This document shows positions 16,810 to 30,006 of a DNA stretch of 64,000 nucleotides, piece by piece. The position numbers were made by a program, and so were the translations under genes. The stretch covers positions 62,001 to 126,000 of the forward strand of contig NZ_FMHU01000001.1 of NCBI RefSeq assembly GCF_900091415.1. The letters run 5' to 3'. The notes below the pieces were generated by a model. That model did not search any database. It was not told the DNA's origin and saw only the letters and a program-made list of their open reading frames with translations. Position 1 is the stretch's first letter. Each line of letters opens with the position of its first letter. The stretch comes from Micromonospora inyonensis. GTDB lineage: Bacteria; Actinomycetota; Actinomycetes; Mycobacteriales; Micromonosporaceae.

Positions 16810-18048
16810 GTGAGCACCCCCGCCGACACCGCGCCGGCCGGGGCGGTCCGCCAGGCCAGCCTCCGCGAGATCAACCTCGCCCTGCTGCTCGGACGGATCG
16901 CCGCCGCGCCCCGGCCACCGTCCCGCGCCGAGCTGGCCGCCGCGACCGGGCTCACCCGGGCGACCGTCTCCGCCGTCGTCGACGACCTGATCGGCGGCGG
17001 GCTGGTCACCGAGGTCGACCCGACGCCGCGCGGCGGGGCGGGCCGCCCCGCCCGGGGCCTGCTGCTCGCCGGGCACGGTCCCGCCGGCCTCGGCCTGGAG
17101 ATCAACGTCGACTACCTGGCGGTCTGCGTGCTCGACCTGGCCGGCGCGGTCCGCCACCGCGCCGTGCACCGGGCCGACCTGCGCCCGGTCTCCCCCGCCG
17201 AGACGCTCGCCCTCGCCGCCGGACTGGCCCGGCAGGCCCGTGCCGACGCGCACGGACAGGGACTCACCCTGGCCGGCGCGGCGCTCGCCGTACCCGGCCT
17301 GGTGGACGCCGACGGCGTGGTCCGGCTCGCGCCGAACCTGGGCTGGCGGGAGGTGGACGTGCCGGCACTGCTCGCCGCCCATCCCCCGCTGACCGAGGCG
17401 GTCCCCGGCCTGCCCACCCTGGTGGTGGAGAACGGGGCCAACCTGGCCGCCCTGGGCGAACTGCACACCGGCGACCCGGGGACCACCAACTTCCTCTACG
17501 TCTCCGGCGAGGTGGGCATCGGCGCGGGCATCGTGCTGGACGGCACCCTCTACCGGGGGGTCCGCGGGTTCAGCGGCGAGATCGGCCATCTCCCGGTCCA
17601 TCCGGAGGGTCGTCCCTGCCGGTGCGGTGGGCGAGGCTGCCTGGAGACGTACGCCGGCCAGGAGGCGATCCTCACCGCCGCCGGCCTGACCGGGGTGGAC
17701 GTGGCCGGCGACGCCGTACGGCTGGCCCGGCTCGCCGCCGGGGGCGACCCGGCGACCCTCGCCGCGCTGGCCGGGGCGGGGACGGCGCTCGGCGTGGCGG
17801 TGGCCGGGGTGGTGAACCTGCTCGACCTGGACACCGTGGTCCTCGGCGGCACCTACGCCCCGCTCGCCCGCTGGCTGGTCCCCCCGGTGACCGCCGAGGT
17901 CTCCCGGCGGGTGCTCGCCGCCGCCTGGTCCCCGGTCACCGTCCGCCCGGCGGTGCTCGGTGGCGACGCCGCTGCGGTGGGCGCGGCGGGATCGGTGGTA
18001 CGCCGGGTCGTCGCCCGGCCCACCGCCTGGCTCACCCGTGCCGGCTGA
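16810..18048 (+). CDS. ROK-family transcriptional repressor, probable XylR
   Basis: 412-residue ROK protein. The N-terminal winged helix-turn-helix is [29 protein letters not shown]. The ROK sugar domain follows, with the zinc motif [14 protein letters not shown] and the phosphate-loop-like [20 protein letters not shown] repressors with this architecture usually bind the pathway sugar and leave DNA, and the divergent xylAB operon makes xylose the likely ligand (inference). The GTG start is supported by the -10 box CAGTGT seven bases upstream. Confidence 0.92.
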
Positions 18049-18138: not shown

Positions 18139-19866
18139 GTGCAGAGGTCAGCACGCCAGGGCTTCCGGCACCCGACGGTGACCGCCACCCGAAGCGGAGG
18201 GCAGGCCGGTCCGGTCAGCGGCGCCGGCCGGGCCCCCCGCTCCGCCGACCGGCCCCGGGACGTCCCCGTCGACGCCGCCCTCGCCCGTGAACTGCTCGAC
18301 GGGCTGGCCGAGGCGGTCGTCACCGCCGACGCGCGGGGCGTGGTGACCCTGGTCAACGCGATGGCCGCCGACCTGCTGCCCGAGGTCACCCGGGGCGGCA
18401 AGCTGACGCTGGTCGGCGTACCGGCACTGGCCGACGCGGCCGGCGGCGGGGCGACCACCTTCGAGGCCGAGCACCGGGGACGGCGGCTGGCCGGGGTCCG
18501 TCGCACGCTCCGGGACGGCGGCTGCGCCTGGTACGTCCGGGACGTCACCGAGGAGCGGGCCCGCACCGACGCGCTGCTCGCCGAGCGCTCCCGCACCGCG
18601 TTCCTCGCCCGGGCCGGCAGCCGGCTCGGGCTCTCCCTGCACCGCGAGCAGACGCTGCGGACGTCGGTCACGCTGGCCGTGCCGTACCTCGCTGACGCCG
18701 CCGTGGTCGTCCACCGTCCGCCGCCGCCGGCTCCGGCCGACGCCGGTCCACACTGGGTACGGTTCACCGACGGCGATCCCGCGCCGGTCACCGGGAACGG
18801 CCCGGCCGGACTACCCGGCGCGGTGCCGGGACTCGCCGAGGCGCTCGACGGTGACCGTACCGACGCCAGTCCGTGGCTCGACGCCGAACTGGCCGACCTC
18901 GGTGGCGTGCTGCCGGAGGACTTCGGCCGCCCCGGCACGGTCCTGGTCACCACGATGCTCGGGGCGGGCGGCGCGACCGGGGCGTTGGTCCTGGTGCGCC
19001 GGCCGGGCCGGGCCGGCTTCGACCAGCGCGACGTCAACGTGGTCCGGGAGTTCGCCGCGCGGGCCGGGGCGGCCCTGGCCACCGCCGACCTCCACGGCGA
19101 GCAGACCCACCTGGCCCGGGTGCTCCAGACCAGCCTGCTCCCGCCCGAACTGCCCGAGATCCCCGGCGTGTCGCTGGCCGGTGGCTACCGGGCGGCCGGC
19201 GACAGCCTACGGATCGGGGGCGACTTCTACGACGTCTCGGCCACCGCCGACGGGGGCACCTTCGCCCTCGGCGACGTCTGCGGCAAAGGCGTCGGCGCGG
19301 CCGTGCTCACCGGCCGGGTACGCCAGTCCCTACAGACCCTGCGTCTGGTCGAACGGCGTCCGCTGGAGTTGATGGCGCTACTCAACCGGGCCCTGTTCGA
19401 CGCGCCCGGGGCGGCCCGGCGCAACCAGTTCACCACGTCGCTGCTCGGCACCCTGACGGTGGAGCCGGACGGCGCGCTGTGCCTCTGCGTCGCCGGGGGC
19501 GGGCACCCGTCACCGCTGGTCGTCGGGGTCGACGGTGCGGTCCGCCCGGCCGTCGTCGGCGGGATGCCGGTCGGGGCGCTCAGCGCCGCGCGGTTCGTCG
19601 AGACGCGGATCCGTCTCGCCCCCGGCGAACTGCTGCTGGCGTACACCGACGGGGTCACCGAGGCGCGCGGCGGCCCGGGGGTGCTGGAGATGTTCGGTGA
19701 AACCCGGTTGCGTCAGGCACTCGCCTCGGGGGCCGGACTCCCGCCCCGGGCCATGATCGACTGGATGCTGCAACTGGTCGACGAGTGGCTGGGCGGGCAG
19801 AGCCAGGACGACATCGCCATGCTCGCCATCGCCCCGGCGTCGACCCGGCCCGGCGCACGGCCGTGA
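18139..19866 (+). CDS. PAS/GAF/SpoIIE protein serine phosphatase
   Basis: 575-residue PP2C-type phosphatase of the SpoIIE/RsbU class, which dephosphorylates anti-sigma-factor antagonists. Order of parts: basic N-terminus, PAS-like domain (about 48-135), GAF-like domain (about 150-325) and SpoIIE catalytic domain (about 345-565). The metal-binding motifs are complete: IGGDFYDVS, FALGDVCGKGVGAAVLTG, AYTDGVTEARG and GQSQDDIAMLAI. The GTG start at 18139 follows AAGGAG at some distance; GTG at 18178 is possible. The stop overlaps the GTG of the B12-binding gene by 4 bases, so the two are translationally coupled and probably work together. Confidence 0.88.
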   Translation: MQRSARQGFRHPTVTATRSGGQAGPVSGAGRAPRSADRPRDVPVDAALARELLDGLAEAVVTADARGVVTLVNAMAADLLPEVTRGGKLTLVGVPALADAAGGGATTFEAEHRGRRLAGVRRTLRDGGCAWYVRDVTEERARTDALLAERSRTAFLARAGSRLGLSLHREQTLRTSVTLAVPYLADAAVVVHRPPPPAPADAGPHWVRFTDGDPAPVTGNGPAGLPGAVPGLAEALDGDRTDASPWLDAELADLGGVLPEDFGRPGTVLVTTMLGAGGATGALVLVRRPGRAGFDQRDVNVVREFAARAGAALATADLHGEQTHLARVLQTSLLPPELPEIPGVSLAGGYRAAGDSLRIGGDFYDVSATADGGTFALGDVCGKGVGAAVLTGRVRQSLQTLRLVERRPLELMALLNRALFDAPGAARRNQFTTSLLGTLTVEPDGALCLCVAGGGHPSPLVVGVDGAVRPAVVGGMPVGALSAARFVETRIRLAPGELLLAYTDGVTEARGGPGVLEMFGETRLRQALASGAGLPPRAMIDWMLQLVDEWLGGQSQDDIAMLAIAPASTRPGARP

Positions 19867-20867
19867 CCGTGGACGGCGGGACGGCACTCGGGGAGGCGGC
19901 GGCCGACGGAGGCGCCGTCGGGGCGTACCTCGACCACCTGGACCGGGTGGACCCGGAGGGCGCCACCCGGCTCGTGCTCGACCTGCTGGACCGGGGCTGG
20001 TCGGTCGCGGACGTCCTGGTGGACGTGGTGTCCGTCGCACAGCGGGAGATCGGCCGGCGCTGGCTGGCCGGAGGGTGGAGCGTCGCCCAGGAGCACGCGG
20101 CCACGCACGTCAGCGAGCAGGTGGTGGCCGCCGTCGGCCGCCGGACCGGCCGGTCGGCCGGACGCGGTCACGTGGTGCTGGCCTGTGTCGAGGGCGAGTG
20201 GCACGCGCTGGCCGCGCGGATCGTCGCCGAGGTGGTCCGGGCCAGCGGCTGGCGGGTCACCTTCCTCGGTGCCAGCGTGCCGCCCCGCCACCTGGTCAGC
20301 TACCTGCACCAGACCGGGCCGGACGCGGTGCTGTTGAGCTGTGTGCAGCCGAGCCGGCTGATCCGGGCCGCCCGGATGATCGAGGCGTGCCGGGCGACGG
20401 GCGTCCCGGTCGTCGCCGGTGGCCCCGGCTTCGGCGCGGGCGGCCGTTGGGCCACGGCGGTGGGTGCCGCCGCGTGTGGCGCCTCCGCCCGGGACGCGGT
20501 GGAGCTGCTGGACCGGCACGGCCACCTGGCTTCGGCGGGTGAGCCGGCACCGCCTCCGCCCGACGACGAGCACGTCGCGGTGCTGCGCCGCCGCCGTGAG
20601 GTGGTGCAGGGGGTCACCCGCGCCCTTGTCCCCGCCGGAGCCGACGCGGACCCGGTGGCGGACGCCGCCGCCCAGGTGCTGGACTCGCTCGCCGCCGCGC
20701 TCCTGGTCGGCGACCCGGAGCTGCTCGACGAGTTCGTCCGGTGGCAACGTCAGGCCCTCGGCACGCGTGACTCCCTGCTCGACGCGATCCTGGCGGGCTG
20801 CGCCACAGGGCTCGCCGAACACCCCCGGGCCATCCGGTACCTGCGCCTCGTCGGCCCCGGCGGATGA
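19863..20867 (+). CDS. cobalamin-binding sensor-like protein with W-x9-EH motif
   Basis: 334-residue soluble protein. Residues about 20-95 form a helical bundle carrying W67-x9-E77-H78, the motif of CarH/LitR light sensors that shields adenosylcobalamin. Residues about 100-215 are the Rossmann B12-binding domain, with the axial-ligand region EGEWHALAARIV (His114), LLSC and VVAGGPGFG. It has no MerR DNA-binding domain, so it cannot act as CarH does on DNA. The last 110 residues are a helical region I do not recognise. The 4-base overlap with the SpoIIE phosphatase gene suggests the two signal together. The light or B12 sensing role is inference. Confidence 0.8.
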   Translation: MTVDGGTALGEAAADGGAVGAYLDHLDRVDPEGATRLVLDLLDRGWSVADVLVDVVSVAQREIGRRWLAGGWSVAQEHAATHVSEQVVAAVGRRTGRSAGRGHVVLACVEGEWHALAARIVAEVVRASGWRVTFLGASVPPRHLVSYLHQTGPDAVLLSCVQPSRLIRAARMIEACRATGVPVVAGGPGFGAGGRWATAVGAAACGASARDAVELLDRHGHLASAGEPAPPPPDDEHVAVLRRRREVVQGVTRALVPAGADADPVADAAAQVLDSLAAALLVGDPELLDEFVRWQRQALGTRDSLLDAILAGCATGLAEHPRAIRYLRLVGPGG

Positions 20868-20900: not shown

Positions 20901-21641
20901 TCAGGCGGGCCGGGCGGTGGGCGGCGTCCGGGGTGGCACGGCGACCAGCGGAGAACGCGCCGGACCCGGCCCGGGTGCCGGAGCGCGGAACGCCGACGAG
21001 GGTCCGCGCTGATCGATCATCGGACGCGGTTCGTGGGTCGCGGACGGGGTCGGCGACTGGTACGCCGGGCCCGGATCGGAGGGCGCACCGCTGGACCGTT
21101 CCGCAGGACCGGTCGGGCGCCGGTGCGGCCCGTCGCCGGGCCGGCGCGGGTCGGGCGGTCCGGCCGAGGGCGGGGGCGGCTCGGCCGGCGGTGACCGGCG
21201 CGCGACCTCCTGGAACTCGGCCAGCCCGCGCCGCAGCGCCTCCCGTCCGGCCGGGCTCATCCCGGCGAGCACCTCGGCCAGGCGCGCCTGCCGTTCGGCC
21301 CGCAGTTCGGCGAGGAGACGCATGGCCTCCGGAGTGAGGTGCAGCGAGATCTCCCGACGGTCGTACCGGCCGGGCTCGCGCTCCAACATGCCGGCGGCGA
21401 CCAGCCGGTCGCACAGTCGGCTGGCCGAGGAGAGCAGCATCCCCAGGAGCGTGGCCAGTCGCCGGAGGTTGATCCCGTCGTACTGCTCCACCACGACGAC
21501 CGCCCGTAGCTGTGCGGTGGAGAGCCGGTTCGTCGTCCGCTCCCGTGTTTCCTCCCACGCGGACAGCAGGGTGGCCGCCGCATCGTCGAGCGCGGCGACC
21601 ATACTCGCTTCTGGTCCGAGCGGACGGTGTTCTTCGGCCAT
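20901..21641 (-). CDS. MarR-family transcriptional regulator with long Pro-rich tail
   Basis: 246-residue protein. Residues about 15-145 are a MarR winged helix: STAQLRAVVVVEQYDGINLRRLATLLGMLLSSASRLCDRLVAAGMLEREP, then DRREISLHLTPEAMRLLAEL, the wing with the DRR signature. The remaining 95 or so residues are Pro/Arg/Gly-rich and probably disordered, unusual for MarR proteins. It is divergent from the phosphatase gene at 21699 and convergent with the B12 gene. The divergent intergenic DNA (21642-21698) is the likely site of action. Confidence 0.85.
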   Translation of the reverse strand: MAEEHRPLGPEASMVAALDDAAATLLSAWEETRERTTNRLSTAQLRAVVVVEQYDGINLRRLATLLGMLLSSASRLCDRLVAAGMLEREPGRYDRREISLHLTPEAMRLLAELRAERQARLAEVLAGMSPAGREALRRGLAEFQEVARRSPPAEPPPPSAGPPDPRRPGDGPHRRPTGPAERSSGAPSDPGPAYQSPTPSATHEPRPMIDQRGPSSAFRAPAPGPGPARSPLVAVPPRTPPTARPA

Positions 21642-21698
21642 CGTGTGCCTGAGACTACCCCGGAACCGCTGGTGGGCGGATCGTCAGAAGGAGCGACC

Positions 21699-22829
21699 AT
21701 GAGCGAGCCGGTCAACCGGGCACGACGGATTCTGACCGACGCACCGGCGGATCTTCTGCTGGACCGGGTCGCCGCCGAGCTGGCCCGGTCGTACGGGATC
21801 ACCGGCGCCGAGTTGTTCCAGGTGGACTACCGGTTGTCGGTGCTGCTGCCGCTGGGCGAGGGGAAGTCGCTGACCGAGCCCGGCCACCCGGCCTGGCGCT
21901 GCTTCGACCACCAGGAGCCGGTCCTGGCCGCCGGGACGGGCTACTTCCCGGTGAGCATGCGGGGCGAGCGGCGCGGCGTGCTCCAGCTGACCCCGGTGCC
22001 GGAGGACCCGGTGGTCGTCTCCGAGCTCGCCGAGGTCGCCACCGTGCTCGGGCACGAGTTGGCCGCCGTGTCGGCCGGCATCGACGTCTACCGCACGGCG
22101 CGGCGCACCCAGCGGCTCACCCTCGCCGCCGAGATGCAGTGGGAGCTGCTGCCCGGGCGCAGCCGGATCCGCCCCTCGTTCAGCCTGGCGGGGCAGCTCG
22201 AACCGGCGTACGCGGTGCGGGGCGACAGCTTCGACTGGTCCGACGACGGCACCCGGCTCTGGCTGTCGGTGATCAACGGGACGGGTGAGGGCGTCGCCGC
22301 CTCGATGCTCACCTCACTGGCCGTGCACGCGCTGCGCAACGCCCGGCGGGCCGGGCTGTGCCTGGCCGACCAGGCGGCGCTGGCCGACCAGGCGATCTAC
22401 GCGGTGCACCGCGGTGACCAGCACCTCTCCGTGCTCCTGCTGGAGCTGGACCTGCGTGACGGGACGATGACCGTGGTCGACGCGGGATCGCCCCGGCTGG
22501 TCCTGCTGCGCGGGGGCGAGGTGCACGAACAGCCGCTGGAGGCACAGTTCCCGCTCGGCATGTTCGACGGGACCGACTACGAGTCCCAGCAGTTCCGGCT
22601 GGAGCACGACGACCGGCTCTTCGTGGTCAGCGACGGGGTGATCGAAGCCGCCGGGCAGGAGGTCCGGTACGGCGACACGGCGCTGGCCCGGTTCCTGCGC
22701 CGGACCGGCCCGATGGCACCGCTGGACGCCGTCCGGTCGCTCATCGGCGACCTGCGCGCCTTCGTCGCCGGGGACCTGGTCGACGACGCGGTCGTGGTGT
22801 GTCTCGACTGGACCGGCCCCCAGCCGTGA
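21699..22829 (+). CDS. PP2C/SpoIIE-like phosphatase with altered metal site
   Basis: 376-residue protein with an N-terminal GAF-like region (about 20-135) and a C-terminal PP2C-like domain (about 150-370). Motifs resemble SpoIIE phosphatases: YAVRGDSFDWSDD (equivalent to GGDFYD), VVSDGVIEAAG and VDDAVVVCLDW. The usual GDxxGxG is INGTGEG, so the metal-binding Asp is replaced by Asn. It may be a weak phosphatase or a regulatory pseudoenzyme. The ATG at 21699 has AAGGAG six bases before it. Divergent from the MarR gene, and possibly part of the same signalling island as the SpoIIE/B12 pair. Confidence 0.8.
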   Translation: MSEPVNRARRILTDAPADLLLDRVAAELARSYGITGAELFQVDYRLSVLLPLGEGKSLTEPGHPAWRCFDHQEPVLAAGTGYFPVSMRGERRGVLQLTPVPEDPVVVSELAEVATVLGHELAAVSAGIDVYRTARRTQRLTLAAEMQWELLPGRSRIRPSFSLAGQLEPAYAVRGDSFDWSDDGTRLWLSVINGTGEGVAASMLTSLAVHALRNARRAGLCLADQAALADQAIYAVHRGDQHLSVLLLELDLRDGTMTVVDAGSPRLVLLRGGEVHEQPLEAQFPLGMFDGTDYESQQFRLEHDDRLFVVSDGVIEAAGQEVRYGDTALARFLRRTGPMAPLDAVRSLIGDLRAFVAGDLVDDAVVVCLDWTGPQP

Positions 22830-25741: not shown

Positions 25742-26338
25742 TCAGGCCGCCGGCTCGCCCCGCTGCGCGGCGACGTGCTCCACCAGGGCCACCAGCACCA
25801 GCTTGCCGGACTGGCGGTCGCGGGCGTCGCAGAGCACCAGCGGCACGTCCGGGTCGAGGTCCAGCGCGTGGCGTACCGAGTTCAGACTGAACCGGCGGGA
25901 GCCGTCGAAGCAGTTCACCCCGACCACGAACGGGATGCCCCGCTGCTCGAAGTAGTCCACCGAGGGGAAACAGTCGGCCAGCCGCCGGGTGTCGGCGAGC
26001 ACCACCGCGCCGAGCGCGCCGAAGGCCAGCTCGTCCCAGAGGAACCAGAACCGGTCCTGCCCCGGCGTACCGAAGAGGTAGACCTGGAGGTCCTCGTTGA
26101 TGGTGATCCGACCGAAGTCCATGGCGACCGTGGTGGTGGACTTGCCCTCCACGCCGGAGGTGTCGTCGGTGCCGATCCCGGCGTTGGTGAGCACCTCCTC
26201 GGTCTGCAACGGACGGACCTCGCTCAGCGCACTCACCAGGGTCGTCTTGCCGGCCCCGAAGCCCCCGGCGATCAGGATCTTCAGTGCCAACGGAACCCGC
26301 CGGCCGGATCCGTCACGGTCAGAGTGCACGGAGTCCAT
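25742..26338 (-). CDS. conservon GTP-binding protein (CvnD-type)
   Basis: 198-residue Ras-like GTPase of the actinobacterial conservon family. It has the P-loop ILIAGGFGAGKTTLVSAL, a switch-II-like VYLFGTPGQDRFWFLWDEL and VVLADTRR. The guanine-specificity loop is VNCFDGS rather than NKxD, as usual in this family. Last of four genes transcribed leftwards; its ATG at 26338 overlaps the DUF742 gene by 20 bases. In the family these GTPases cycle with a roadblock protein beside a membrane kinase-like protein, a system linked to development and antibiotic control in Streptomyces (family knowledge). Confidence 0.93.
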   Translation of the reverse strand: MDSVHSDRDGSGRRVPLALKILIAGGFGAGKTTLVSALSEVRPLQTEEVLTNAGIGTDDTSGVEGKSTTTVAMDFGRITINEDLQVYLFGTPGQDRFWFLWDELAFGALGAVVLADTRRLADCFPSVDYFEQRGIPFVVGVNCFDGSRRFSLNSVRHALDLDPDVPLVLCDARDRQSGKLVLVALVEHVAAQRGEPAA

Positions 26339-26708
26339 TCGCCACCGCCTTGAGGATGTTGTCGTCGGGAAGGAACGCAGTGGACGACGGCTCGTGCACG
26401 GTGACGAGTCCGCCGGTGAGCAGGTCACCGAGGAGCACCCGGACCACGCCGACGGCGAGGTCGAGGTGCGCGGCGAGTTCCGCCACCGACACCGGCTCGA
26501 CAGCCAGCGCGACCAGGTGGCGGTGCTCCGGGTGCAGGTGGGGGTGGTCGTGCGGGTCGGTGTCCCGGGTCGCCAGCACGAACGCGACCAGGTCGAAGTC
26601 ACCGGCGGCCGAGGCCACGCGTCCACCGGTGACGGCGTACGGGCGGACGACCGGGCCGGCCTCGTCGTCCAGCCACTCGTGCCGGGGCCCCGGCGGTTCA
26701 GCCCGCAT
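26319..26708 (-). CDS. DUF742 protein (CvnC-type)
   Basis: 129-residue protein of the DUF742 family, a winged-helix-like fold found almost only in conservons. Typical features are VRPYAVTGGR near the N-terminus, VSVAELAAHLDLAVGVVRVLLGDLLTGGLVTVHEP in the middle and the FLPDDNILKAVANGLRAL end. Third gene of the operon. It overlaps the roadblock gene by 11 bases and the GTPase gene by 20, which implies coupled translation and fixed stoichiometry. The biochemical role is not established in the family; it is thought to be part of the complex. Confidence 0.93.
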   Translation of the reverse strand: MRAEPPGPRHEWLDDEAGPVVRPYAVTGGRVASAAGDFDLVAFVLATRDTDPHDHPHLHPEHRHLVALAVEPVSVAELAAHLDLAVGVVRVLLGDLLTGGLVTVHEPSSTAFLPDDNILKAVANGLRAL

Positions 26709-27120
26709 CGGCCACGACCGTCGAGCCCCGGGACGGGGTGCTGAGCGTCTCGCCGACCCGGGTCACCAGCATCGCCATCTCGTACGCGACCAGGCCAATG
26801 TCCGTGTCGGCGTCGCTGAGCACGGCCAGACACGCGCCCTGGCCGGCGGTGGTGACGAAGAGGTACGCCGACTCCATCTCCACCACCGTCTGGCGCACCG
26901 GCCCGGCCGCGAAGTGCCGGCTGGCTCCCTTCGCCAGGCTCGCGAAGCCGGAGGCCATGGCGCAGAAGTGCTCGGCCGCGTCCCGTTCCAGTCCGGCGGA
27001 GGCGCCCATGAGCAACCCGTCCGCGGAGAGCACCACCGCCTGCTGGGCGGCCGGCACCCGGTCCACCAGTTCGTCGAGCAGCCAGTCGAGATCGGCGGCC
27101 TGCCTCGTGGGTTGCACCAC
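26698..27120 (-). CDS. roadblock/LC7-domain protein (CvnB-type)
   Basis: 140-residue single-domain roadblock protein. DLDWLLDELVDRVPAAQQAVVLSADGLLMGASAGLERDAAEHFCAMASGF is the canonical actinobacterial roadblock start. Such proteins dimerise and act on the cognate Ras-like GTPase, probably as GTPase-activating or scaffold subunits. Second gene of the conservon; its ATG overlaps the end of the kinase gene by one base. Confidence 0.94.
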   Translation of the reverse strand: MVQPTRQAADLDWLLDELVDRVPAAQQAVVLSADGLLMGASAGLERDAAEHFCAMASGFASLAKGASRHFAAGPVRQTVVEMESAYLFVTTAGQGACLAVLSDADTDIGLVAYEMAMLVTRVGETLSTPSRGSTVVADAG

Positions 27121-29495
27121 TACCCGTCCCTTCCCGTTCCGGTGACAGTTTCGTTGGACGCTCCGCCGGGTCGCACCCGGGGTAGCTCCGTGGTCGGTTG
27201 GTCCGCCATCGACACGGTCGGGCCGACCGGCACCGTGGGGGCGTCGACCGCAGTGGACGGCAGGGCGTCGGGCTCCGCCGGGTACGTTCCCACGCGTCGC
27301 CCCCGGGCGGTGCCCGCCTGGAGCGCCGCCATCGCCGCCCGTACCTGCTCCGGGCTGCGCGGCGACGGCTCGCCGCCCGGACGGCGCGGCTGCCGGGCCG
27401 GGCCCCGCTGCCGGATCCGGCGGGGCAGCCCGTCCGGGCCGACCGGAACCTCGGCCAGACCCGGTCGCGCCGTCGCCAGCGGCACCACCGAGGGCGGCTC
27501 CGTGCGCCTGCGGGCCGAGCGGGCCGAGCGGGCCGAGCGGGGCCGCGGCAGTGTGCTCAGCTTCGTCACCTTGGCCATCCGGGCGCTGGAGCGGTCGCTG
27601 GGCGGCCGGGGCGGCTCGGTGGTCACCAGGTCGGACGGCAGGAGCACCACCGCGGTCGTTCCGCCCTGCGAACCGGGGCGCAGCCGCACCCGGACGCCGT
27701 GCCGGGCCGCGAGCCGGGCCACCACGAAGTGCCCGAGGCGGGCGCTGACCGCCGGGTCGAACTCCGGGGACCGGGCCAGCTGGCGGTTGGCCTCCTCGAT
27801 CGCGTCGGCGGTCATGCCCAGGCCCCGGTCGGAGACCTCGACGGCGTACCCGTTGGGCAGCAGTTCACCGCGGACCACCACCCGGGTGTCCGGGGCGGAG
27901 AAGACGGTGGCGTTCTCGATCAGCTCGGCCAGCAGGTGCATCACGTCGCCGACGGCCCGGCCGACCACCGCCGTGGGCCGCACCGGGGCGATGTCGACCC
28001 GGTCGTACGCCTCGACCTCGGAGATCGCGCCCCGGACCACGTCCAGCACGGCCACCGGGTTGCGCCAGCCCCGCCCCGGCGCCGCTCCGGCGAGGATGAC
28101 CAGGTCCTCGGCGTGTCGGCGCATCCGGGTGGCGAGGTGGTCGACCCCGAACAGCTCGGCCAGCTCCTGCGGGTCCTCGGTACGGCGCTCCATCCGGTCG
28201 AGCAGGGCGAGCTGTCGGTGCACCAGGCCCTGGGTGCGCCGGGCGATGTTGAGGAAGACCTGGTTGAGCCCGTGCCGCAGGGCCGCCTCGTCGACGGCGG
28301 ACCGGACCGCGGTCCGTTGGACGGCACCGAACGCCTGCCCGACCTGACCGATCTCGTCGGTACCGAACTCCAGGAGCGGGGCCTCCCGGGCGACGTAGAC
28401 CTCCTCGCCCCGGCGCAGTCGGGACACCACGTCGGGCAGTCGCCGCTCGGCCAGCTCGGTGGCGGCCGTCCGGACCCCGGTGAGTCGCCGGATCAGCGAG
28501 CGGCCGACCCGCAACGCCACGACCAGGGAGGCCACCACGGCCACCAGTCCGAGCAGCCCGGCGGCGGCGAGCCGGGCGAGGATGCCGACGGCCGCCGGCA
28601 CCGACCGCTCGGTCAGCGCCTCCGCCTCGGCCAGTTCGAAGTCGCGCAGGTGGCGCTGGACGACGTCGTACGTGGTCCGCCAGGTCCGCGCGTCCACCGA
28701 CGGCGGGTCGCCCGGATCGGCGGCGACCAGGTCGTCCTGCATCCGCCGCAGCCGGAGGAAGTCCTCCCCCTCGGCCAGCCGCTGGAAGGCGCTGCGGCTG
28801 GCGCCCGGCAGGTCGTCCACGGCCACGGCGGTCGCGTACCGCTGGTTGCCGATGGTCTGCACCAGCGCGGTGTGCTCACCCCGGGCGTACCGGCCGGCGG
28901 CGAACGCCCCGGCGGCCAGCGAGTCGGCCTGGCTGAGCAGCTCCCGGGCGTGCCCGAGCGAGCCCAGCGCCCGGGCCTGCCGGGTGAGGCCGTCGTCGGG
29001 GCCGGCGGCCATGGCGGAGAAGGTCTGGAACGCCGCGGTGAGCATCCCGGTGTAGAGGCCGTGCGCGCCGGCCCGGTCCATCTGCCGCCGGTCGATGAAC
29101 CGCCGCCCGGCGGGGAGCGCCTCCACGGCGGTGAGGAGCCGGTCGAGACGGGCGTCGAGCAGGTCGTCGGCGGCGTCCCGCAGGTCCTTGCCGTCGGCCC
29201 GGCGCCGCAGCTCGGCCACCGCCGCGTCGGTGCGCACCCGCTGGTCGCGCAGCTCGGTCACCTCGCCACCAGCGGCGAGTTGGACCACCGAGAGCCGGCG
29301 CTCCCGTTGCAGCTCGATGACCACCCGGTCACCGGGCAGGCCCAGGTCCCGCAGCAGGGTGCCGGCGGCGAGCAGGTCGAGGGCCGGGCCGAGGGCCAGG
29401 GTGGTGGCGAAGATCCACAGTGCCAGCAGTGCGGACAGCGGAACGACGACCAGCGCGGTCAGCTTGGTGCGGATCGGCCAGTCGCGGGAGTTCAT
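27120..29495 (-). CDS. conservon sensor kinase-like membrane protein (CvnA-type)
   Basis: 791-residue membrane protein. An N-terminal helix (about 12-34) and a second near 305-330 flank an extracytoplasmic nitrate/nitrite-sensing-like helical domain. A HAMP-like region follows, then a degenerate histidine-kinase unit whose ATPase boxes are clear: LAELIENATVFSAPDTRV (N box) and VEVSDRGLGM (G1). The C-terminal 170 residues are disordered and rich in Arg and Pro. The ATG at 29495 has GAGGTG upstream and begins MNSRDWPIRTKLTALV, the family's usual start. It heads the four-gene conservon; no response regulator is encoded nearby, as is normal for conservons. Confidence 0.92.
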   Translation of the reverse strand: MNSRDWPIRTKLTALVVVPLSALLALWIFATTLALGPALDLLAAGTLLRDLGLPGDRVVIELQRERRLSVVQLAAGGEVTELRDQRVRTDAAVAELRRRADGKDLRDAADDLLDARLDRLLTAVEALPAGRRFIDRRQMDRAGAHGLYTGMLTAAFQTFSAMAAGPDDGLTRQARALGSLGHARELLSQADSLAAGAFAAGRYARGEHTALVQTIGNQRYATAVAVDDLPGASRSAFQRLAEGEDFLRLRRMQDDLVAADPGDPPSVDARTWRTTYDVVQRHLRDFELAEAEALTERSVPAAVGILARLAAAGLLGLVAVVASLVVALRVGRSLIRRLTGVRTAATELAERRLPDVVSRLRRGEEVYVAREAPLLEFGTDEIGQVGQAFGAVQRTAVRSAVDEAALRHGLNQVFLNIARRTQGLVHRQLALLDRMERRTEDPQELAELFGVDHLATRMRRHAEDLVILAGAAPGRGWRNPVAVLDVVRGAISEVEAYDRVDIAPVRPTAVVGRAVGDVMHLLAELIENATVFSAPDTRVVVRGELLPNGYAVEVSDRGLGMTADAIEEANRQLARSPEFDPAVSARLGHFVVARLAARHGVRVRLRPGSQGGTTAVVLLPSDLVTTEPPRPPSDRSSARMAKVTKLSTLPRPRSARSARSARRRTEPPSVVPLATARPGLAEVPVGPDGLPRRIRQRGPARQPRRPGGEPSPRSPEQVRAAMAALQAGTARGRRVGTYPAEPDALPSTAVDAPTVPVGPTVSMADQPTTELPRVRPGGASNETVTGTGRDG

Positions 29496-30006
29496 CAGCA
29501 CCTCGCCCGGACGGTGTGGCAGGAGTGGCGCCGGCAGCCGGCCGGGCAGCGACGCCCGGCGCACCGGGCACCGGTACGAGCGCCTTCGGCAGGATACGTA
29601 ATCGTGCGCTGATGCACTACCGTCCGTTCCGTCCGCTCAGGTTCCCACCTGACCTCGTCCACCGTGGACGAACGTACGCGGGCACCCCGCCGGTGATGCG
29701 ACGGGGTGACCGGTGACGCGTCCCGGACCGGATCGGGCGGCGCGGGATCGGGTGGCGCGGGATCGGGTGGCGCGCGTCCGGCGCGGGGGCAGAGGCGGCA
29801 CGCGGGCCGGGCCTCGCGGTGTGCCCTGTCCTGAGGGCCGCGCCCGGCACGGTGCGCACCCGATCCAGCTCTCTTGAATCGATCAAGTTTTCGCTCGAGA
29901 TCGGCATGCGGGCCCGGTCATGTCGGCCACCTCAGCGGGAAAGTAGGCGCAATCGGGATTGGCGATCAGGTCGACGCGGGAATAGCAGGTGACGAAGGAG
30001 GAGGCC
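29496..30006. other. divergent intergenic region with 15-bp tandem repeats
   Basis: 511 bases between the conservon and the next operon. It holds three head-to-tail copies of a 15-bp unit (GATCGGGTGGCGCGG with small changes, 29731-29775) and the inverted repeat CTTGA-ATCGA-TCAAG (29873-29887), a plausible operator. The ribosome site AAGGAGGAGG at about 29995 belongs to the next gene. No reading frame here is convincing. Confidence 0.6.

Follow-up and report, generated by a model that had tools for sequence, protein, structure and literature searches.

Two overlapping genes of Micromonospora inyonensis raised the question of whether a possibly light-sensitive, B12-binding protein acts on partner switching by contact with a phosphatase. 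Both genes were found in the analysed window, a stretch of 64,000 nucleotides from the 6.9 Mb genome. They are co-directional and lie between ROK-family and MarR-family regulators; the four-base overlap claimed in the original prediction was confirmed as the shared bases GTGA. Features of the locus were as follows.

16810-18048: ROK-family regulator flanking the gene pair
18139-19866, plus strand: PPM phosphatase of the SpoIIE/RsbU type whose N-terminal part is a sensor region (575 aa, or 562 aa from a start at 18178)
18274-18543, plus strand: PAS-like segment, phosphatase residues 33-122 in 562-aa numbering (AlphaFold secondary structure; no Pfam PAS match)
18643-18999, plus strand: GAF-like segment, residues 156-274 (AlphaFold model; Pfam GAF E 7e-4, below the curated cut-off)
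19024-19137, plus strand: long helix, residues 283-320, at the junction of the GAF-like segment and the phosphatase domain (AlphaFold model); candidate signalling linker by analogy with RsbU
19168-19836, plus strand: PPM phosphatase domain, residues 331-553 (Pfam, AlphaFold model)
19863-19866, plus strand: stop and start codons overlapping in GTGA (sequence)
19863-20867, plus strand: B12-binding protein of the photocobilin family, 334 aa from GTG
19899-20147, plus strand: four-helix bundle capping AdoCbl, with W67 (20061-20063) and E77-H78 (20091-20096) (AlphaFold model, alignment)
20166-20522, plus strand: Rossmann B12-binding domain with lower ligand H114 (20202-20204) (Pfam PF02310, alignment to SasPcob His108)
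20568-20852, plus strand: photoglobin domain, residues 236-330, with Ala268 at 20664-20666 (fold match over residues 12-334, alignment columns)
20901-21641, minus strand: MarR-family regulator flanking the gene pair

The upstream gene encodes a SpoIIE catalytic domain (Pfam E 8.6e-36) with its metal-binding aspartates. The complete metal site expected from the original prediction was indeed present, and was conserved in the 99 paired phosphatases, with Asp at D1a, D2, D3, and D4b in all of these and at D4a in 98. Assignment of PAS and GAF domains held only in part: neither was supported by Pfam at the curated cut-off and a Pfam GAF match occurred in 10 of 35 phosphatase homologues, but the AlphaFold model, in our reading, contains PAS-like and GAF-like segments. 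In the 334-aa product, Pfam recognized B12-binding (E 3.5e-20, residues 102-214) and B12-binding_2 (E 1.7e-12, residues 22-90) and, as predicted, no DNA-binding domain. Its closest named relatives are Micromonospora proteins with 83 and 82% identity. All elements of the AdoCbl light signature GxxW, EH, GxxH, and GxxxP (PMC11796333) were found, at G64-W67, E77-H78, G111-H114, and G136-P140, in columns that were invariant or nearly so among 40 aligned sequences; W67, E77, H78, and H114, which had been placed correctly from the start, were fully invariant.

The C-terminus, at first not recognized, matched in sequence and fold a known domain, the photoglobin domain of photocobilins. The nearest relative is therefore a photocobilin rather than CarH/LitR, to which the protein had initially been likened. 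Photoglobins were named by Schneider 2022, as cited in PMC10979010. That paper also describes SasPcob of Saccharothrix syringae (PDB 8J2W, 8J2X), which has the same length, fold, and domain order as the M. inyonensis protein, 45–46% identity over 312–318 aligned residues, and the same AdoCbl residues. The copy in a congener (L071) likewise lies behind a SpoIIE gene and before a STAS gene. AbDPcob (PDB 8J2Y) differs in being fused to a GGDEF diguanylate cyclase, whereas the M. inyonensis photocobilin is separate and SpoIIE-paired. A second difference, from SasPcob, concerns the aspartate that holds biliverdin: Asp270 of SasPcob is replaced by Ala268 in the M. inyonensis copy, in which the eight preceding residues are also missing. 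Since the photocobilin fold and B12 site are present and an equivalent of Asp270 is absent, the protein was classified as a photocobilin but not as a bilin binder.

These characteristics are likely to reflect a light switch based on AdoCbl that works through contact with the phosphatase and, in this copy, probably operates without a bilin. The main alternative is an ordinary dual-chromophore photocobilin, in which the clade of the M. inyonensis copy would bind biliverdin or another bilin through other residues and also sense red light. Asp270 is a key bilin contact in SasPcob, and AbPcob, a named photocobilin with His in its place, still binds some biliverdin (ca. 20% occupancy), both according to PMC10979010. 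Among 114 non-redundant loci, retained after removal of duplicates, Asp occurred in 89 of the 95 outside the clade (exceptions L066, L146, L147, L150, L154, and L156) and in none of the 19 inside it, where it was replaced by Gly (11), Ala (4), Val (2), Ser (1), or Glu (1). A gap-free stretch links Ala268 to the conserved Trp294; the latter, equivalent to Trp296 of SasPcob, was retained in 19/19 clade members, as expected if a bilin were still bound. A protein-database set, which partly overlaps the locus set and was sorted by similarity rather than by tree, showed Asp in 1 of 41 close clusters (P0022, a real Asp on visual inspection) and in 69 of 74 others.

The 19 Asp-less loci formed a single branch (SH-aLRT 100) in a tree built without the globin-anchor columns under study; this was a quick tree with SH-aLRT as its only support measure. 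On it, the distribution of Asp required six changes, at least five of which were forced by well-supported branches. Beyond the anchor, the sister clade conserves 27 globin columns, of which 11 were changed; the corresponding figure for the B12 part was 9 of 80 (p 0.0015). Several changes were near-uniform: Phe277 was replaced by Ala and Tyr283 by Arg, each in 18 of the 19 clade members, the exception being the M. inyonensis copy (Ser and Leu). The globin domain nevertheless persisted. In either clade it diverged approximately twofold faster than the B12 part, with identities of 0.60 (globin) versus 0.80 (B12) within the clade and of 0.75 versus 0.87 among sister-clade copies from Micromonospora. 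With relative rates this similar, the domain appears rebuilt rather than decaying, although its retention at an unexceptional rate is also what a dual-chromophore protein would show.

A profile search of the M. inyonensis genome yielded no PF01126 heme oxygenase, which further weighs against bilin use, while two DUF2470 proteins (C2:730653-730850 and C2:1639473-1639697) represent a possible other route to a bilin. As a general correlate, heme oxygenase was not informative: PF01126 was present in 48 of the 65 family genomes that matched a photocobilin strongly, as against 49 of the other 85 (Fisher p 0.057), and no clear link between the two was observed. Taken with the loss of the anchor throughout the clade, a dual-chromophore function is considered unlikely, though it deserves more weight than the alternatives discussed below.

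A somewhat less probable explanation is that the protein reports AdoCbl supply rather than light, with AdoCbl loading setting the state of the phosphatase. The M. inyonensis genome encodes a cobalamin adenosyltransferase, so the organism uses AdoCbl, and binding of AdoCbl alone lowers the activity of a photocobilin-cyclase fusion in the dark (PMC10979010). Such a role would, however, leave unexplained why all four light-signature elements are present and why W61, E71, H72, and H108 (SasPcob numbering), including the Trp and Glu-His of the light pocket, were retained in 114/114 loci.

Whether the two genes form a functional pair was investigated by comparing loci across genomes. Genes were called with an in-house composition-based script, so that starts and exact overlaps are approximate; because this caller missed several low-GC or overlapped genes, pairing was counted by six-frame search. 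One batch of loci consisted of the best 80 of 520 and leans towards near relatives; the phylum sample comprised 396 genomes, 27 of which had a match at 1e-30, with weaker matches (G270, G496, G334, G479, and G452) set aside. In 100 of 114 loci, the gene immediately preceding the photocobilin in the same orientation was SpoIIE: 19/19 in the clade, 78/78 in its sister clade, and 3/17 in distant lineages, which also account for the remaining 14. The M. inyonensis genome contains just 14 SpoIIE-domain matches in 6.9 Mb, which argues against pairing by chance. Lack of conservation of the gene pair had been named in advance as one outcome that would refute the original prediction, and the prediction withstood this test. 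The overlap measured exactly four bases in 64 of 93 pairs, subject to the approximate gene calls. Pairwise distances of phosphatases and photocobilins were strongly correlated (r 0.93 over 99 pairs; permuted maximum 0.17), part of which is due to shared ancestry.

Among 7996 scored candidates, a search for fusions retrieved one 908-residue SpoIIE-photocobilin protein with both residue sets intact, a single record that may be an assembly frameshift, and one unrelated longer protein. Neighbouring frames were scanned for 10 of the 14 loci without an upstream SpoIIE gene (all except L140, L144, L155, and L156): four encoded GGDEF enzymes (L142, L148, L149, and L153), an arrangement resembling the known photocobilin-cyclase fusion, one encoded a heliorhodopsin (L154), and five had no Pfam match. 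No N-terminal homology between GGDEF and SpoIIE partners was detected over eight frames, a weak test since these stop-to-stop frames are partly non-coding. Sixteen plasmid records had partial matches, none covering more than 80% of the query.

Two distant loci showed other contexts. In an actinobacterial lineage (L154:6687-8469), a photocobilin-like gene is followed by an overlapping heliorhodopsin gene (PF18761, E 2.2e-101), which places two photoreceptors next to each other. At L155:823-2775, a photocobilin-like sequence forms part of a longer frame, and a near-identical database protein, P0001 (593 aa), is a fusion that includes GAF and ANTAR domains.

Pairing was less strict from the side of the phosphatase. 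The same chromosomal position was compared in 14 genomes selected for carrying the flanking second phosphatase gene (21627-22829) without this photocobilin, comprising all nine such congeners in a 150-genome sample and five picked others. Seven of the 14, all congeners (7/9), had kept the phosphatase alone, and both genes were absent from the other seven. At 13 of these sites (all but L169), tblastn hits were limited to fragments with E values of 1.1 or higher, and thus no sensor remnant was detected. A tree of the 19 paired and seven unpaired phosphatases called for five presence changes, at least three of them forced. The phosphatase can evidently work without the sensor, since seven congeners retain it alone. 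Conversely, in neither SpoIIE-linked clade (97 loci together) was a sensor encountered that lacked a SpoIIE neighbour, and the photocobilin therefore resembles an accessory input.

Survival of the phosphatase in 7 of 14 related genomes without its sensor is what would be expected if the genes shared no more than expression and the photocobilin acted on another protein. This is considered quite improbable in view of the SpoIIE neighbour in all loci of the two linked clades, the natural fusion, and the occurrence of GGDEF enzymes in 4 of the 10 scanned frames at non-SpoIIE loci. A CarH/LitR-type transcription regulator can safely be dismissed despite the common W-x9-EH and His-ligand residues, since the protein lacks the MerR DNA-binding domain of CarH, has a globin domain that CarH does not, and scored 49.6 bits with the NCBIfam CarH model, whose cut-off is 400 bits. 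AerR (PDB 7TE2) acts on a transcription repressor and has no globin domain either.

The flanking gene 21627-22829 was rejected as a part of the module: a match at 1e-40 occurred in 68 of 150 family genomes, as compared to 8 of 150 for the clade photocobilin. In 8/8 aligned orthologues, its second metal motif is NGxGEG, in which Asn replaces the usual Asp; judged from this motif, the gene may encode a phosphatase that lacks activity yet has been retained throughout the genus. The window also contains Roadblock and DUF742 genes between GTPase-like and sensor-kinase-like genes (25742-29501), presumably a conservon-type cluster.

Of the original prediction, the B12 light-sensing residues, the missing DNA-binding domain, and the conserved pair were upheld, so that it was partly supported, and contact between photocobilin and phosphatase is the best reading of the analysis. 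In the AdoCbl light switch proposed here, the stand-alone photocobilin would hold AdoCbl between its four-helix bundle and Rossmann domain. Light would cleave the Co-C bond, after which the adenosyl pocket (W67, E77-H78) would rearrange and the dimer open, as demonstrated for SasPcob. The altered photocobilin may then contact the phosphatase with which it is co-translated, the sensor segments or the linker helix of the latter being the probable site, and thereby alter how a STAS anti-anti-sigma protein is dephosphorylated and, through it, a sigma factor. Owing to loss of the bilin anchor in the clade, the M. inyonensis copy (19863-20867) most likely senses light through B12 alone, which covers wavelengths as far as green. 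Light control may also have the reverse sign in the clade, since SasPcob without biliverdin had the opposite sign on a test enzyme. Partners of a related kind occur in Bacillus subtilis, in which RsbT is a kinase-like protein and not a photoreceptor and RsbQ, unlike the photocobilin, is a hydrolase. As proposed for M. inyonensis, a separate protein there switches a partner-switching PPM phosphatase in the RsbQ-RsbP and RsbT-RsbU pairs (PMC5468089, PMC12143880). Moreover, PMC10979010 reports that cyclase activity is altered in vitro by stand-alone photocobilins that are separate from the enzyme.

M. inyonensis carries a second photocobilin (C2:2489087-2490049) that is 46% identical to the 19863-20867 copy and retains the bilin Asp. 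It has its own upstream SpoIIE gene, again with a four-base overlap, and two STAS genes divergently upstream. With a STAS profile made from 15 motif-chosen seeds in sister-clade loci, a STAS gene was detected within 3.3 kb in 58 of 78 sister-clade loci versus none of the 19 in the clade (L053 and L058 having short flanks), a point against the proposed mechanism. Seven of the eight family genomes with the clade (8/150) also had a strong match of the other kind, and the aligned second copies (L040, L050, L051, and L119 of M. humi) all keep Asp. A genome from another family (G187) similarly combines Asp-bearing L133 and Asp-lacking L150, on separate branches and both behind SpoIIE. Two copies per genome are not new, since Micromonospora yangpuensis is one of the species for which PMC10979010 lists multiple photocobilin hits, but their split by the bilin Asp appears to be. 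Tentatively, Micromonospora partner switching may contain two parallel B12 light channels: an older, STAS-adjacent pair using B12 and bilin (green to red) and a second pair with a globin pocket rebuilt for AdoCbl only (up to green) or for another ligand. Two phosphatases could thus tell colours apart, perhaps with opposite sign, and the sensor would be a plug-in input that evolution has moved between diguanylate cyclases and SpoIIE phosphatases.

Photocobilins and their possible link to SpoIIE and STAS, proposed from network analysis, are already in print (PMC10979010). The open-access literature yielded no paper joining cobalamin-binding, Micromonospora, and SpoIIE, and no description of the anchor-less clade, its Asp-bearing partner in the same genome, or recurrent loss of the anchor, although the supplements of PMC10979010 might hold such a survey. 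For actinobacterial partner-switching phosphatases, network analysis has suggested control by light through B12, with no demonstration found in open-access literature. Natural controls are available in the same phosphatase with and without the sensor and in sensors with and without Asp270. If the proposed contact mechanism is correct, these systems would offer green-only and broad-spectrum modules, and the idea that inputs are exchangeable between PPM phosphatases and diguanylate cyclases (PMC12143880) would extend to a photoreceptor.
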